Positions 3,163 to 64,000 of a DNA stretch of 64,000 nucleotides are shown piece by piece. The DNA is from an uncultured Bacteroidales bacterium (GTDB taxonomy: Bacteria; Bacteroidota; Bacteroidia; Bacteroidales; FEN-979). A program made the position numbers and the translations under genes. A model generated the notes under the pieces. The model saw only the letters and a list, made by a program, of their open reading frames with translations, was not told the origin of the DNA and did no database searches. Numbering within the stretch: position 1 is the stretch's first letter; every line of letters starts with the position of its first letter. The stretch is from NCBI GenBank assembly GCA_903885595.1, contig CAISJJ010000110.1, forward strand, positions 1-64,000, read 5' to 3'.

Positions 3163-3171
3163 GATTTTCCG

Positions 3172-3244
3172 TCTCCTCGCCAGGACTCGAACCTGGGACC
3201 CATTGATTAAGAGTCAATTGCTCTACCAACTGAGCTACGAAGAG
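3172..3244 (-). tRNA. tRNA-Lys(CTT)
   Basis: Minus strand CTCTTCG TAGCTCAGTTGGTAGAGCA ... CTCTTAA loop ... CCAGGTTCGAGTCCTGG CGAGGAG A; acceptor and T arms pair; anticodon CTT. Confidence 0.95.
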
Positions 3245-3263: not shown

Positions 3264-3323
3264 CAAACTTTTCAGGAAATGAGGATAACCCCGATTAAAT
3301 AATTGTTTAAGTTTGTAATCGTG

Positions 3324-3386
3324 ACAAATGACAAATGACAAATGACAAATGACAAGTGACAAATGACGAGTGACGGGTGACAAATG
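3324..3386. repeat. Heptamer tandem array (ACAAATG)x9, degenerate
   Basis: acaaatg x4, acaagtg, acaaatg, acgagtg, acgggtg, acaaatg; the last ATG is the meaB start codon. Confidence 0.95.
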
Positions 3387-4553
3387 GATAAGGGAAAAAA
3401 AAACAGTAATACTTTTCCGGCTTCGGCCCTACATGTGATGGACGGTATTGAACAACCGGGCCAGATCAACGAAGAGGCGCTCAGAAAGCTGAAAGCAAGA
3501 AAGCACAAGGTTTATACCGCAGAAGAGCTTATTGCCGGTATCCTTTCAGGGAACAGGACCCTCCTGAGCAAAGCGATCACCCTGGTAGAGAGTTCACTGC
3601 CTAAACACCAGGAACAGGCACAGGAGATTATTGCTGCATGTTTGCAAATACAAAATGCAAAATGCAAAATGCAAAATTCCGAAATCAGCCAAGCCGAATC
3701 CCCGCTTTCATCCATTCGCGTTGGTATTACCGGGGTCCCAGGCGTGGGTAAAAGCACATTCATTGAAGCACTGGGGAAACACCTTACCGCAAAGGGACAT
3801 AAGCTGGCCGTTCTGGCTATTGATCCGAGCAGTTCACGATCAAAAGGCAGTATCCTCGGCGATAAAACCCGGATGGAGGAGTTGTCTGTCGACCCGAACG
3901 CATTTATACGCCCCTCGCCTTCAGCCGGTTCGCTTGGCGGGGTGGCAAGGAAGACCCGCGAAACGATTTTACTTTGCGAAGCTGCCGGTTTTGATGTGAT
4001 CTTTATCGAAACTGTTGGGGTGGGACAATCGGAAACCACCGTTCATTCCATGGTCGACTTTTTCCTGCTTCTCATGCTGGCCGGCGCCGGCGATGAGCTC
4101 CAGGGCATCAAGCGGGGTATCATCGAAATGGCTGATGCCATCGTGATCAACAAGGCCGATGGCGACAATGTCCAAAAGGCAAAATCAGCCCGTGTTGAGT
4201 ATGCCAATGCCCTTCACCTTTTTCCTCCCCCCGGCAGCGGCTGGATACCGGTTGCCGACATCTGTTCGGCCCGTTCAATGCTGGGCATTGATCATGTGTG
4301 GGAAATTATCGTGGAACACAGGGAAACTACGACAAAAACAGGTTTTTTTCAAAAGCGAAGAATGGAGCAAAGCCGCCAGGTCCTGTTCGAAACCATTGAA
4401 GATGGATTGCGCAACCACTTCTTCTCACGGAAAGAGATTGCACATCTCCTTGCAAAATCGGAATATGAAATTATGACCGGACACGTGAATCCTTATAAAG
4501 CAGCGCAGGAGCTGCTGGAGCAGTATTTTACAGGTAGCGAGGTAGTGAAATAG
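3384..4553 (+). CDS. meaB: Methylmalonyl-CoA mutase-associated G3E-family GTPase MeaB/ArgK
   Basis: GITGVPGVGKSTFIEALG, LAIDPSSSRSKGSILGDKTRM, ETVGVGQSE, VINKADGDN. Confidence 0.95.
   Translation: MDKGKKNSNTFPASALHVMDGIEQPGQINEEALRKLKARKHKVYTAEELIAGILSGNRTLLSKAITLVESSLPKHQEQAQEIIAACLQIQNAKCKMQNSEISQAESPLSSIRVGITGVPGVGKSTFIEALGKHLTAKGHKLAVLAIDPSSSRSKGSILGDKTRMEELSVDPNAFIRPSPSAGSLGGVARKTRETILLCEAAGFDVIFIETVGVGQSETTVHSMVDFFLLLMLAGAGDELQGIKRGIIEMADAIVINKADGDNVQKAKSARVEYANALHLFPPPGSGWIPVADICSARSMLGIDHVWEIIVEHRETTTKTGFFQKRRMEQSRQVLFETIEDGLRNHFFSRKEIAHLLAKSEYEIMTGHVNPYKAAQELLEQYFTGSEVVK
3644..3678. repeat. In-frame heptamer tract (CAAAATG)n inside meaB
   Basis: gcaaata caaaatg caaaatg caaaatg caaaatt, encoding QIQNAKCKMQN. 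Confidence 0.9.
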
Positions 4554-4579
4554 CGAGGTAGCGAAGTTGCGAAGTTGCG
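4532..4579. repeat. Octamer tandem array (AGGTAGCG)x6 spanning the meaB stop codon
   Basis: aggtagcg aggtagtg aaatagcg aggtagcg aagttgcg aagttgcg; meaB TAG (4551-4553) lies inside it. Confidence 0.93.
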
Positions 4580-4598
4580 AAATCCAAAACAATTACCC

Positions 4599-31935: not shown

Positions 31936-34247
31936 ACAACTCCATTTCACATATCCCGATCCTGAACGAGATGCCCAACCCTCAATCCAAAGCCACACGT
32001 TATAAAAAATTCGTAAAAGGATTTTGGATTTCCTATTTAGTCGTAATTGTCCTGATCGCCCTGTTCTTTATCTCCGTCACCTATGGACTGTTTGGCAAGA
32101 TGCCCACTTTCGAGGAGCTTGAAAATCCTAAAAGTAACCTGGCTACTGAAGTGATCTCAGTTGATGGCAAACTGCTGGGAAAATACTACATTGAAAACCG
32201 CTCCAACACGCAGTACCAGGATCTCTCCCCCAATGTGATCAATGCACTTATCGCCACCGAAGACGCCCGGTTCGGGGAACATTCGGGGATCGACGTGATC
32301 GCCATCTTTCGCGTGATGTGGGGTATGACCACCGGTTCGTCAAAAGGAGGAGGATCCACCATCACCCAGCAACTTGCGAAAAACCTTTTTCCCCGAAAAC
32401 AGAACAGGACTTTTTGGGAAACCGTAATGATCAAATTCAAAGAATGGATCACCGCAGTAAAGCTTGAACGCAATTATTCCAAGGATGAAATCCTGGCTAT
32501 GTATCTCAATACTGTTGATTTCGGAAGTCAGTCGTACGGGATTAAATCAGCTGCAAAAACCTATTTCAACAAAGAACCCGATCAGCTGGGTGTCGAAGAG
32601 GCTGCGATGCTCATTGGCATCCTGAAAGCCCCAACCTGGTTCAGCCCCGTTCGCAATCCTGCCCGTGCATTTGAACGCCGGAATACCGTTTTAAGTCAAA
32701 TGGCCAAATATGAATATATAAGCGCCACCGACTTCGATTCACTGAAAAAAATCCCGGTCGACATGACCAATTACCGCCTGCAGGATCATACGACCGGCAT
32801 TGCCACCTATTTTCGCGAATACCTTCGCATGGTGCTGGCCGAATGGTGCACGCAGCATCCCAAGGAAGACGGAACACCCTATAATCTTTACCGTGACGGG
32901 CTTAAGGTATACACAACCATCAACTACAAGATGCAGGAATATGCTGAAAGAGCCATGAGAGAATATCTTGGTAAAGAGCTCCAGCCCTCTTTCTTCGACC
33001 ACTGGAAAGGAATTCCGAATGCGCCATTTGTTTTTGAAGAAGATGTTACAAAAAAGGAGACCAACAACCTCCTGCTTTCGGCCATGCGGCGCACTGACCG
33101 GTATTATCGTCTGAAAACAGAGGGATACTCTGATGCACAGATCCTGCAGGACTTTAAGGTGCCTGCCAAAATGAAGGTTTTTTCGTACCGCGGCGAGATC
33201 GATACAGTAATGACCCCCATGGATTCTATCCGCTATTATAAATTCTTCCTTCAGTCGGGGCTGATGTCAATGGACCCGCATTCAGGATATGTGAAGGCCT
33301 ATGTGGGTGGCATTGATTACCGGTTCTTCCAGTATGATCATGTCAAATTAAGCAAACGGCAGGTAGGTTCGACCTTTAAACCATTCCTGTATACACTGGC
33401 CATGCAGGAGGGCGAATCGCCCTGTTCGCGTTACCCCAATGTGCAGCCAGTCATCGACCTTGGCAATGGACAGGTGTGGGCGCCTGAAAGTTCCAGCGAT
33501 GAGCGGCGTGGGCAACAGGTCACCCTGAAATGGGCGCTGGCTAACTCGAACAACTGGGTTTCGGGACAGCTCATAAGGAAATATTCTCCCAAGGCAGTGG
33601 TGGCAATGGCCCATAAGATGGGTGTTACCAGCGATATCCCGGCTGTATATTCGATTGCCCTGGGATCGTGCGATCTCACCCTATACGAAATGGTAGGCGC
33701 TATGAGTGTTTTCGCAAATAAAGGTGTTTACATTGAACCTATCTTCTTTACGCGCATTGAAGATAAAAACGGCAATGTTCTCCAGACATTCAACGCAAAG
33801 TCGCAGGAAGCCATCAGTGAAGAAACCGCCTACCTGATGATCCAGTTGATGAAGGGCGTGGTGGAGGGTGGAACCAGTGTCAGGCTGCGTTATAAATACG
33901 GATTCGACAATCCTATTGCCGGAAAAACCGGGACAACCCAAAACCAAAGTGATGGCTGGTTCATGGGCATAACCCCTGAACTCGTGACAGGCGTATGGGT
34001 TGGCTGTGAAGACCGGGCGGCCCATTTCAGGTCGATCACCCTCGGGCAGGGCGCCAATATGGCGCTTCCCATCTGGGCCCTTTATATGCAGCGGGTTTAC
34101 GGCGACCCCGGACTTCGATATTCCAAAGATGATTTCGCGGCGCCATCAAAGCCGATTGATGTTGAATTCGATTGCGGAGAAGAGGGATCTCCTGCTCCTG
34201 TAAAACAAAAGAAGAAAAAGCAGGAGATTGACACCGATGAGTTTTAA
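31932..34247 (+). CDS. Class A penicillin-binding protein (PBP1A-like)
   Basis: ATEDARFGEHSGID, GGSTITQQLAKNLF, RQVGSTFKPFLYTLAM, SNNWVSGQLI, AGKTGTTQNQSDGWF. Confidence 0.96.
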   Translation: MNNSISHIPILNEMPNPQSKATRYKKFVKGFWISYLVVIVLIALFFISVTYGLFGKMPTFEELENPKSNLATEVISVDGKLLGKYYIENRSNTQYQDLSPNVINALIATEDARFGEHSGIDVIAIFRVMWGMTTGSSKGGGSTITQQLAKNLFPRKQNRTFWETVMIKFKEWITAVKLERNYSKDEILAMYLNTVDFGSQSYGIKSAAKTYFNKEPDQLGVEEAAMLIGILKAPTWFSPVRNPARAFERRNTVLSQMAKYEYISATDFDSLKKIPVDMTNYRLQDHTTGIATYFREYLRMVLAEWCTQHPKEDGTPYNLYRDGLKVYTTINYKMQEYAERAMREYLGKELQPSFFDHWKGIPNAPFVFEEDVTKKETNNLLLSAMRRTDRYYRLKTEGYSDAQILQDFKVPAKMKVFSYRGEIDTVMTPMDSIRYYKFFLQSGLMSMDPHSGYVKAYVGGIDYRFFQYDHVKLSKRQVGSTFKPFLYTLAMQEGESPCSRYPNVQPVIDLGNGQVWAPESSSDERRGQQVTLKWALANSNNWVSGQLIRKYSPKAVVAMAHKMGVTSDIPAVYSIALGSCDLTLYEMVGAMSVFANKGVYIEPIFFTRIEDKNGNVLQTFNAKSQEAISEETAYLMIQLMKGVVEGGTSVRLRYKYGFDNPIAGKTGTTQNQSDGWFMGITPELVTGVWVGCEDRAAHFRSITLGQGANMALPIWALYMQRVYGDPGLRYSKDDFAAPSKPIDVEFDCGEEGSPAPVKQKKKKQEIDTDEF

Positions 34248-35425
34248 ATCATCTCCTGACTTTCCCTGTAAATAACGCCCCGCTCTTTCAATCCATTGAG
34301 CAGAAAAGCAACACATTCAGGCTGCATGCCAATGAATTCAGGAACAGAAATTCCTTTGCGCGAGTAGAGTCCTGCGGTAATCATGCGCAGCGCCACCGTA
34401 GCCGAATAGCCTGTTGTACGGGCCATGGAATGGATGCGGGATGCGGGATCGTATTTATCATAGAGATCCCAGGTATACCTGACTTTTTTTCCGTCCTTCT
34501 TACCCTCAACCATTACCTGCATTACGGTTATGTCAACCTCCCCCTCTTTCAGCTTCCATTTCGGAAAAAGCAGCTTTGCCGTAAGATCCATAGGCTTAAC
34601 ACGAATTCCGCGCACCTCAATTTCTTCCTGGCTGAAAAAACCGGTTTCACGCAAAACACGCATCTTTTCGATGTGGCCCGGATACCTCAGGGTTTTCTCC
34701 TTCATGTTGGCACATTTCACCGTATGGGCCAACGAACGCAGTCCGTCGGTGTTGAAGGCTTCAAGTGTTCCGATACCCGGGAAGTTCAGCAGTTCGGGGT
34801 CGGAAAGCGCCGGTTTAACAATAAATTTTCCATTTTCAATGTAACGGGCAGGCCGGGTGTATTCCTCGATCACATCAACCGGCGAAAAAACCGCCTTGTA
34901 TTCATAGGGCCATTCGCGGATTTCGGGAAGACCGCCCACCATATAGAGGATGTTTTCCGTTTCATCCAACAGATGATCAGCGTAACCGATAAGTACGTTA
35001 CACATTCCGGGAGCAACCCCCATATCCATTATGGCAGTTACGTTATTTTTCCGGGCCAGTTCATCAAGTTCGAAGGGGTCCTCAATAAAGAAGGCAATAT
35101 CAACCACGTTCTTCCCTGCGCCAATGATAGCCTTAAGCGTTTGAAACCCCATAAAACCCGGCACCGCATTGATCACCATGTCGAAATCGGCAACCAGTCT
35201 GGCAACATACGACGGATCACTGAGATCTGCCAGAATTGTTTTTATCTCCCCGTGCCCTGTGCCCTGTACCCTGTGCTCTGTGCTCTGTGCCCTTTGTCGT
35301 TCAACAACATTACGGAGCGAATCCTGGCTGATATCGGCAATGGTTACTTCGAATTCCGGATCATGGGAAAGGTCAAGAGCCATCGGAGCGCCCACCAGGC
35401 CGGCGCCTAAAATTATTATCTTCAT
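34244..35425 (-). CDS. Saccharopine dehydrogenase-like protein
   Basis: MKIIILGAGLVGAPMALDLS Rossmann start at 35425; INAVPGFMGFQTLKAIIGAGKNVVDIAF; MGVAPGMCNVLIGY. Confidence 0.9.
   Translation of the reverse strand: MKIIILGAGLVGAPMALDLSHDPEFEVTIADISQDSLRNVVERQRAQSTEHRVQGTGHGEIKTILADLSDPSYVARLVADFDMVINAVPGFMGFQTLKAIIGAGKNVVDIAFFIEDPFELDELARKNNVTAIMDMGVAPGMCNVLIGYADHLLDETENILYMVGGLPEIREWPYEYKAVFSPVDVIEEYTRPARYIENGKFIVKPALSDPELLNFPGIGTLEAFNTDGLRSLAHTVKCANMKEKTLRYPGHIEKMRVLRETGFFSQEEIEVRGIRVKPMDLTAKLLFPKWKLKEGEVDITVMQVMVEGKKDGKKVRYTWDLYDKYDPASRIHSMARTTGYSATVALRMITAGLYSRKGISVPEFIGMQPECVAFLLNGLKERGVIYRESQEMI
35248..35296. repeat. In-frame heptamer tract (CCCTGTG)x~7 inside the saccharopine dehydrogenase-like gene
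   Basis: ccccgtg ccctgtg ccctgta ccctgtg ctctgtg ctctgtg ccctttg; encodes QRAQSTEHRVQGTGHG. Confidence 0.93.
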
Positions 35426-35458
35426 GATTTTTATTTTTAATGCCTGCAGAAGAATTAA

Positions 35459-35646
35459 AGACTGTTTAAATTTGGTAAAACTCTTCACTTTTCTTTATTC
35501 ATTTTTCACTGGAAATTATACTTTGTTCACTATACATTAAATTATTGCATTGTGAAAAGTGAAAAGCGATAAATGAAAAGCGAAGAGTGAATAGTTAATA
35601 GTTTTCAAATAGTTACGAGATAGCAAAATCAATTTTAAACAGTCTC
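35459..35646. repeat. TIR-bounded non-autonomous (MITE-like) element, copy B
   Basis: AGACTGTTTAAATTT ... AATTTTAAACAGTCT; internal inverted heptamer tracts; homologous to 14490-14679. Confidence 0.8.
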
Positions 35647-62304: not shown

Positions 62305-62423
62305 GGAAAGGATTATTGAAAACAGTACCCTCAAACAGGAAGGATCTTGCTATTTTGAATTCTTCAGGTATAATTGCACTCATTCTATTAAATTTTCATC
62401 AAATTCCTGATTTGTATATTCAT

Positions 62424-62591
62424 CCTCAAATCCTCAAATCCTCAAATCCCAAAATCCTCAAATCCTCAAATCCTCAAATCCCAAAATCCCAAAATCCTCA
62501 AATCCCCAAATCCTCAAATCCCAAAATCCTCAAATCCCAAAATCCCAAAATCCCAAAATCCTCAAATCCCCAAATTTTCAAATCCCCAAAT
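62424..62591. repeat. Octamer tandem array (CCTCAAAT/CCCAAAAT/CCCCAAAT)x21
   Basis: Exactly 168 bp = 21 x 8 with degenerate CCYMAAAT units; reaches the stop codon of the minus-strand GT2. Confidence 0.97.
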
Positions 62592-63325
62592 CATTTCAAA
62601 TACTTCCTGTCCAAAACATTATACTTTATCAGGCACCAGACCGCGCGAAAGGCATCCTTCATCCCGATTTTCTTCCCTTCCTCGTAGGTTCGGCCATAAT
62701 AGGAAATACCCACTTCGTAAATACGGATCTTCGGGAAGCGGGCTATCTTTAAGGTTACTTCAGGTTCAAATCCAAAACGTTTTTCCTTGAAGTGGACCTT
62801 TTTAAGTATTTCTGCCCGGAAGAGTTTATAACACGTCTCCATATCGGTTAGGTTCAGATTGGTGAACATGTTGGAAATGAAGGTGAGGAGCTTGTTCCCG
62901 ATCGAATGCCAGAAGAAGAGGATACGGTGAGGTTTGCCTCCCATAAATCGCGAACCGTAGACGACATCGGCAAAACCATCCAGGACAGGCTTCAGCAATA
63001 CATTGTATTCAGCAGGATCGTATTCAAGATCGGCATCCTGGATGATGATGAAATCGCCGGAAGCTTCAGCGATCCCGCGATGAAGCGCTGCCCCTTTACC
63101 CTGGTTGACAGGCTGATTGATCAACCGGATATTTACCTGCCGGTGGGCGGAAATATATGCCTCCACAACACCTGTCGTATTGTCTCTGGAGAAATCATTG
63201 ATGATGATGATCTCTTTTTGAATATCTTCAATGAGTTCAACGGCAAGCACCTTATCAAGAATGTGATGGATGGTAGCCGCTTCGTTGTATGCGGGAATTA
63301 AAATACTGAGTGTGCGGGACTCCAT
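62591..63325 (-). CDS. Family 2 glycosyltransferase (DPM1/DPG synthase-like)
   Basis: [75 protein letters not shown]; start ATG at 63325. Confidence 0.94.
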
Positions 63326-63372: not shown

Positions 63373-64000
63373 TTATTCGTAGTAATAGATACGTTTCACC
63401 CGCCGCGAAATCCCCGTAAGCACTTCGTAAGGGATGGTCCCGATTGCCTCCGCGAGTTCCGTGACGGGATGTGTGTCGTCAAAGATGACTACCCCGGTAC
63501 CTTCCTGGATGGAATCGGGACGCGGGACACGGGACGCGGGACTGTTTTCTTCGGGACGCGGGACACGGGACGCGGGACTGTTTTCTTCGGGACATGGGAC
63601 GCGGGACGCGGGACTGTCTGTCGCGGAACAAAAACCGGTCACATCGATCATCGTGAGGTCCATGCAGATGTTTCCGATGATTGGAGCTGGTTTCCCGTTG
63701 ATATATAGCCTTCCGCGGCCGTTGCCCAGGCGGCGGTTCAACCCGTCGGCGTAACCAACCGGCACAATGGCGATGACTGAATCTTTCTCTGCCCTGCCTT
63801 TACGGTTGTACCCGATGGTCTCACCTGCCCTGATCTGTTTGACCTGGGTAATGACCGATTTAAGCGTACTCACATTCCGCAGCCGGGATTGTTCTTCGCG
63901 ATTGGCGCCCACCCCATACAATCCAATTCCCAGACGCACCATATCAAATTGTGCTTCGGGAAACCGCTGAATTCCAGCCGAGTTCAATACATGACGTAGT
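63373..64000 (-). CDS. alr: Alanine racemase, C-terminal part; 5' end off the window
   Basis: [101 protein letters not shown]. Confidence 0.93.
63517..63616. repeat. Nested in-frame repeat in alr: 36-bp period built from GGGACGC heptamers
   Basis: gggacgc gggacac gggacgc gggactg ttttcttc repeated; encodes [12 protein letters not shown]. Confidence 0.95.

Follow-up and report, generated by a model that had tools for sequence, protein, structure and literature searches.

Tandem 7- and 8-bp arrays recurrently occupy a pre-P-loop linker of MeaB in a family of Bacteroidales

In an uncultured Bacteroidales bacterium (GenBank assembly GCA_903885595.1), the gene for MeaB, the methylmalonyl-CoA mutase-associated GTPase, carries an in-frame array of a 7-bp word in the linker ahead of its P-loop and two further short-period arrays at its ends. 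The stretch analysed, positions 1 to 64,000 of contig CAISJJ010000110.1, is referred to here as the window. Comparison with orthologues revealed that this linker, short throughout the readable relatives of the order, is expanded in most members of the family and is in most of these recurrently filled by arrays whose words turn over between species. We consider it probable (roughly 0.7) that the linker is a permissive site that was opened within the family and has been repeatedly recolonised by dispersing heptamer arrays.

Three arrays at the meaB gene

The open reading frame (ORF) at 3,384–4,553 on the forward strand (389 amino acids) is meaB, as identified by curated family models (NCBIfam NF006958, 461.7 bits against a cut-off of 329; TIGR00750, 314.2 bits against 240.75) and by matches to solved MeaB proteins in the PDB; its GTPase and mutase-associated role is predicted on these grounds. 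As in other MeaB/MMAA family GTPases, the domain is full length and the conserved motifs are retained, with the GxPGxGKST P-loop and other motif columns invariant in the orthologue alignment (P-loop GVPGVGKST at 3,732–3,758, forward strand; invariant in 26 aligned orthologues). Those GTPases have a linker of 6 amino acids, in contrast to the 11–46 described here.

An earlier sequence-only reading had placed three arrays at this gene, and all three were recovered there on the forward strand by Tandem Repeats Finder (TRF): TGACAAA (9.3 copies, 3,322–3,386) upstream, AAATGCA (4.6 copies, 3,646–3,677) in frame inside the linker, and the octamer GTAGCGAA (6 copies, 4,534–4,581, within an array delimited at 4,532–4,583) over the C-terminal codons and stop. 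Their lag-match scores of 40.5, 22.5 (both at lag 7) and 22.0 (lag 8) exceed every value in twenty 64-kb first-order Markov simulations, where no score rose above 12.5 at period 7 or 10.5 at period 8. Eleven arrays in the window score at least 12 at period 7 and five at period 8, with none at periods 5, 6 or 9–12; simulated windows average no more than 0.05 such arrays at any one period.

The expanded linker, delimited by orthologue comparison and PDB alignments, comprises residues 88–110 (3,645–3,713, forward strand; QIQNAKCKMQNSEISQAESPLSS), and its 23 amino acids make it 17 longer than the 6-residue linker of repeat-free MeaB. The predicted protein carries QIQNAKCKMQNSEISQ at the insert. 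The proposal that a heptamer tract inserts QIQNAKCKMQN before the P-loop thus needs adjusting: the array is in frame as proposed, and the insert is 17 amino acids long, of which the array codes for roughly the first half.

The linker across MeaB orthologues

Defining the linker as the stretch from the end of the IIxxCL helix to the first strand of the G domain, we found 6 amino acids in 27 of 27 readable order-level orthologues, usually P[HYF]SG[KN]S (L049 is listed as 7 because its strand starts with MR rather than IR). Five solved MeaB-type proteins align without gaps at this position to a protein with the 6-residue linker. Of 35 orthologues within the family, 7 have retained 6 amino acids, the short form being present in two genera, and the other 28 have 11–46 (the linker of L087 is truncated by a contig end). 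The insert is therefore missing or variable in length among relatives, as the earlier reading predicted, and the comparison showed no conservation of the same peptide segments in repeat-free MeaB homologues.

Nineteen of the 28 expanded linkers hold a 7- or 8-bp array scoring at least 12, and none of the 65 orthologues has a lag-7 or lag-8 array between the P-loop and the end of the protein. The words themselves turn over: the 17 scored seven-bp linkers hold 16 different words, and even the sister species represented by L001 and L002 (branch support 97/94) carry different ones. Only one of these words contains a sense-strand stop in its pure form. Divisibility of the net insert by 3, together with words that almost never bring in a sense stop, would let in-frame arrays persist. 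In a structure model, the helix before the linker ends at residue 98 and the predicted local distance difference test (pLDDT) score falls below 50 at residues 100–107.

Two further observations concern individual linkers. Those of L086 and L018 hold palindrome-like inserts (PPLQGRAGEG and PPPTVGGREG, respectively) in place of heptamers, and genome G017 encodes a second MeaB (L032, on contig G017:C126), whose linker has 6 residues and whose score profile matches that of the protein of genome G025; contamination or transfer may account for it. An assembly artefact was considered and rejected, as the arrays lie inside contigs and the frames are open across many genomes; a single conserved functional insert was likewise rejected, the sequences differing in nearly every species.

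Array words recur at unlinked loci

In genera g1–g4, most of the genomes sampled contain about 8–35 period-7/8 arrays per 100 kb, compared with 0–7 in the order outgroups, and the excess in the clade falls at periods 7 and 8. As in dispersed-heptamer systems described previously, period 7 exceeds both chance and other periods, and the same word occupies many unlinked loci: pairs of unlinked 7-bp arrays sharing a word within a genome number 32, against 1.0 expected from genome composition. Most arrays lie outside genes or at gene edges. The sampled stretches of G017, G022 and G024 contain no period-7/8 array and that of G008 contains one.

Exact three-copy matches were searched for in 19 congeneric draft genomes, with MeaB linkers included in the counts; reversed-pattern controls gave 0 in all searches. 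AATTTCC, which is also the MeaB linker word of G012, has 45 matches at 25 loci of that genome (40 without the MeaB linker) and none in the 18 congeners. AATTACC is confined to G008 and G000, with 14 matches in each when MeaB linkers are left out. AATCCGA occurs in seven genomes, most often in G015, where it is present in both the MeaB linker and the MurF-alanine racemase gene; ATCCAAA occurs in four, its count in G017 dropping to 2 without the MeaB linker; AAATGCA occurs in ten, including 10 loci besides meaB in the genome of the window; and GATTTAC occurs in twelve, with 1 to 304 matches.

These distributions bear on a purely local account, in which each array expands at its own site from two copies that arose by chance, a polymerase footprint favours 7–8 bp and no dispersal takes place. 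Comparison of the sister genomes G006 and G010 shows gaps inside arrays that measure 7, 14 and 21 bp, next to gaps of other lengths, which is compatible with unit-wise slippage, and the footprint idea itself goes back to Mrazek 2007, in the accounts of it given in PMC4679880 and PMC4692102. We nevertheless regard purely local slippage as unlikely, given the 32 shared-word pairs against 1.0 expected and the confinement of three-copy AATTTCC to 25 loci of one genome, although a strong intrinsic word preference varying by lineage could still rescue it. Nearly every species has its own words in the loop, and these turn up again at unlinked positions in its genome, a pattern better matched by recolonisation by dispersed words than by growth in place alone. 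The sequence-only reading, by which these segments appear shaped by repeat expansion, is supported in part; what is seen is not one local expansion.

Other coding slots and a larger repeat element

The MeaB linker is not the only coding slot of this kind. In the MurF-alanine racemase fusion, recognised by its Pfam domains, three distinct sites are occupied by 7- or 8-bp arrays, with different words by species (L165–L184). Part of this gene lies in the window (63,373–64,000, with an array at 63,515–63,617); the MurF-alanine racemase query match in the window's genome, L183 (G000:C110:63592-65061), contains one in-frame TGA. A saccharopine-dehydrogenase-like protein (34,244–35,488) carries an in-frame 7-bp array at 35,248–35,293. 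Among the species read (L187 was left out of this comparison), that array is present in the window's species only, in a short loop already variable in length, and the loop may represent a slot at an early stage; the case also lends support to purely local slippage.

These slots speak to the question of function. A linker whose variable length tunes how active MeaB is or how it couples to the mutase, or whose frame changes switch expression, would be in keeping with the retention of a long linker in 28 of 35 family orthologues, with a site adjoining the P-loop and with the shift in reading frame expected from a net change by a single 7-bp unit or by two. Its sequence, length and composition are all unconserved, however, part of it is poorly predicted in the structure model, the pattern is repeated in MurF-alanine racemase, in loops unrelated to this one, and arrays in general lie mostly outside genes or at their edges. 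Nothing suggests a MeaB-specific function of the arrays, and we regard such a role as very improbable.

A larger element was encountered at 4 of the 11 AAATGCA loci in the window's genome (L221, L225, L229 and L230), which have in common about 110 bp starting with CTAACCTGGACAAGCCAGAAT, with an internal AAATGCA array and divergent flanks; the copies at L225 and L221 are cut at contig ends. It is possibly a small mobile repeat, and arrays might by extension be carried inside larger mobile repeats that insert into both genes and intergenic sites, an idea to which the palindrome-like insert in the L086 slot also lends itself. No common flank was detected among the remaining AAATGCA loci of this genome, meaB included, and as a general explanation carriage by such elements therefore appears quite unlikely.

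A probable permissive linker, recolonised by dispersing words

We thus favour a permissive MeaB linker refilled by dispersing heptamers. Under this model, 7- and 8-bp words would form short tandem arrays and reach many unlinked loci, with word sets varying by lineage, and the arrays would gain and lose length in whole units, presumably by unit-wise slippage. Selection would clear arrays from most coding sequence but leave them in place at the edges of genes and in a small number of permissive loops, where they would be effectively neutral. One such loop would be that of MeaB, which connects the N-terminal helices with the first strand of the G domain. The linker would have been lengthened within the family and then refilled by the words active in each genome, with selection acting only on frame, scarcity of stops and harmless position.

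Several observations weigh against this model. G022 and G017 have expanded linkers although sampling 40 kb of each genome yielded no 7/8-bp array, and G025 has 10 arrays in 60 kb yet a 6-residue linker; for GATTTAC, the genome carrying the word in its linker, G011, ranks only seventh of 19. In nine expanded linkers (L005, L006, L012, L014, L017, L018, L020, L022 and L086) the array score is under the threshold or no clean 7/8-bp array is present; we infer most of them to be decayed arrays. The tree, with 9 label changes of which at least 4 are forced by well-supported branches, allows different numbers of gains and losses. Finally, local slippage alone fails to account for the presence of one word at many loci that are unlinked, and there is no evident route of dispersal. 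One unlikely candidate is an active, lineage-specific mechanism that writes words into new loci, for example by templated synthesis or array-to-array copying at breaks; if true, it would explain how a new word comes to occupy dozens of unlinked loci in one species, displacing older words in protein loops.

Start and stop codons at array edges

The upstream TGACAAA array lies between a tRNA-Lys gene (3,171–3,244, reverse strand, by tRNA search) and meaB. The ATG at 3,384 is, as the earlier reading had it, the last ATG of this nine-copy array and sits at its edge: strict lag-7 matching stops at 3,381 and is followed by CAAATGG. The residues after this ATG are not array-coded, and MDKGKKNSNTFPASALHVM of the window protein resembles MEQEKKNSDHIPGSALQVM of its relative L003. 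Position 3,384 is the likely start, which this resemblance supports without proving. Because the N-terminal residues resemble those of L003, the array provides a border, and perhaps the ATG, but not the peptide. At the other end, the GSEVVK codons and the TAG stop (4,551–4,553) both fall within the GTAGCGAA array, again as first read. The view that both termini and a loop were shaped by repeats consequently holds for the loop and the array-coded C terminus and not for the N terminus, which is only bordered by an array. Comparable edges recur among orthologues, with the start ATG falling within an array in L014, L019 and L005 and the stop codon inside one in the window, L007, L019, L034, L035 and L086.

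Relation to known repeats

Dispersed heptamer repeats are already known (PMC4679880, PMC4692102). TAACTGA repeats are dispersed in marine Beggiatoaceae, some cyanobacteria and five Bacteroidetes, and, like the arrays described here, they are direct repeats of 7 bp that occupy numerous loci, for the most part between genes or near start codons, with some over stop codons or within ORFs and with no evident dispersal mechanism (PMC4679880). That study tracks one word, whereas here there are many per genome, in lineage-specific sets that extend to period 8, and the recurrent in-frame filling of one loop in conserved enzymes is a feature of the present arrays. The TAACTGA consensus is absent among the array words listed for our sampled stretches; whole genomes were not searched for it. 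Long simple sequence repeats with a heptamer excess (Mrazek 2007, as told in PMC4679880 and PMC4692102) and the GGGAATC and GGGGA(C/T)T arrays of Xanthomonas and Nostoc (PMC4692102) have in common with ours, as far as these accounts go, heptamer over-representation, positions near ORF ends including over stops, and variation in length and sequence among close relatives; the present words, by contrast, show no general G-richness, and their coding slots recur from one species to another. Rickettsia palindromic elements also insert in frame into unrelated conserved genes, but these are about 150 bp with a conserved peptide (PMC10969869), in contrast to the tandem 7–8-bp words and species-specific peptides seen here. 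In a limited literature search that did not extend to subscription papers, we found no description of recurrent in-frame filling of one conserved-enzyme loop across a clade with lineage-specific words.

The family offers a natural series of about 20 related species in which one enzyme loop has been filled by repeats many times, with repeat-free relatives as a baseline, making testable both the spread of short words between unlinked bacterial loci and the extent of harmless repeat remodelling in conserved proteins. For annotation, it carries a warning: in genomes of this kind, repeats can be the source of start codons, stop codons and linkers.

The longest arrays of the window are 21 copies of ATCCTCAA at 62,422–62,592, ending at a gene edge, and 17 copies of TCATTAG followed by AATCGTA at 17,358–17,510. 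Further in-frame or N-terminal arrays occur in ORFs of the window's genome at L237, L238 and L233, of which L238 appears by eye to be a FecR-like frame and L233 a von Willebrand-like one.
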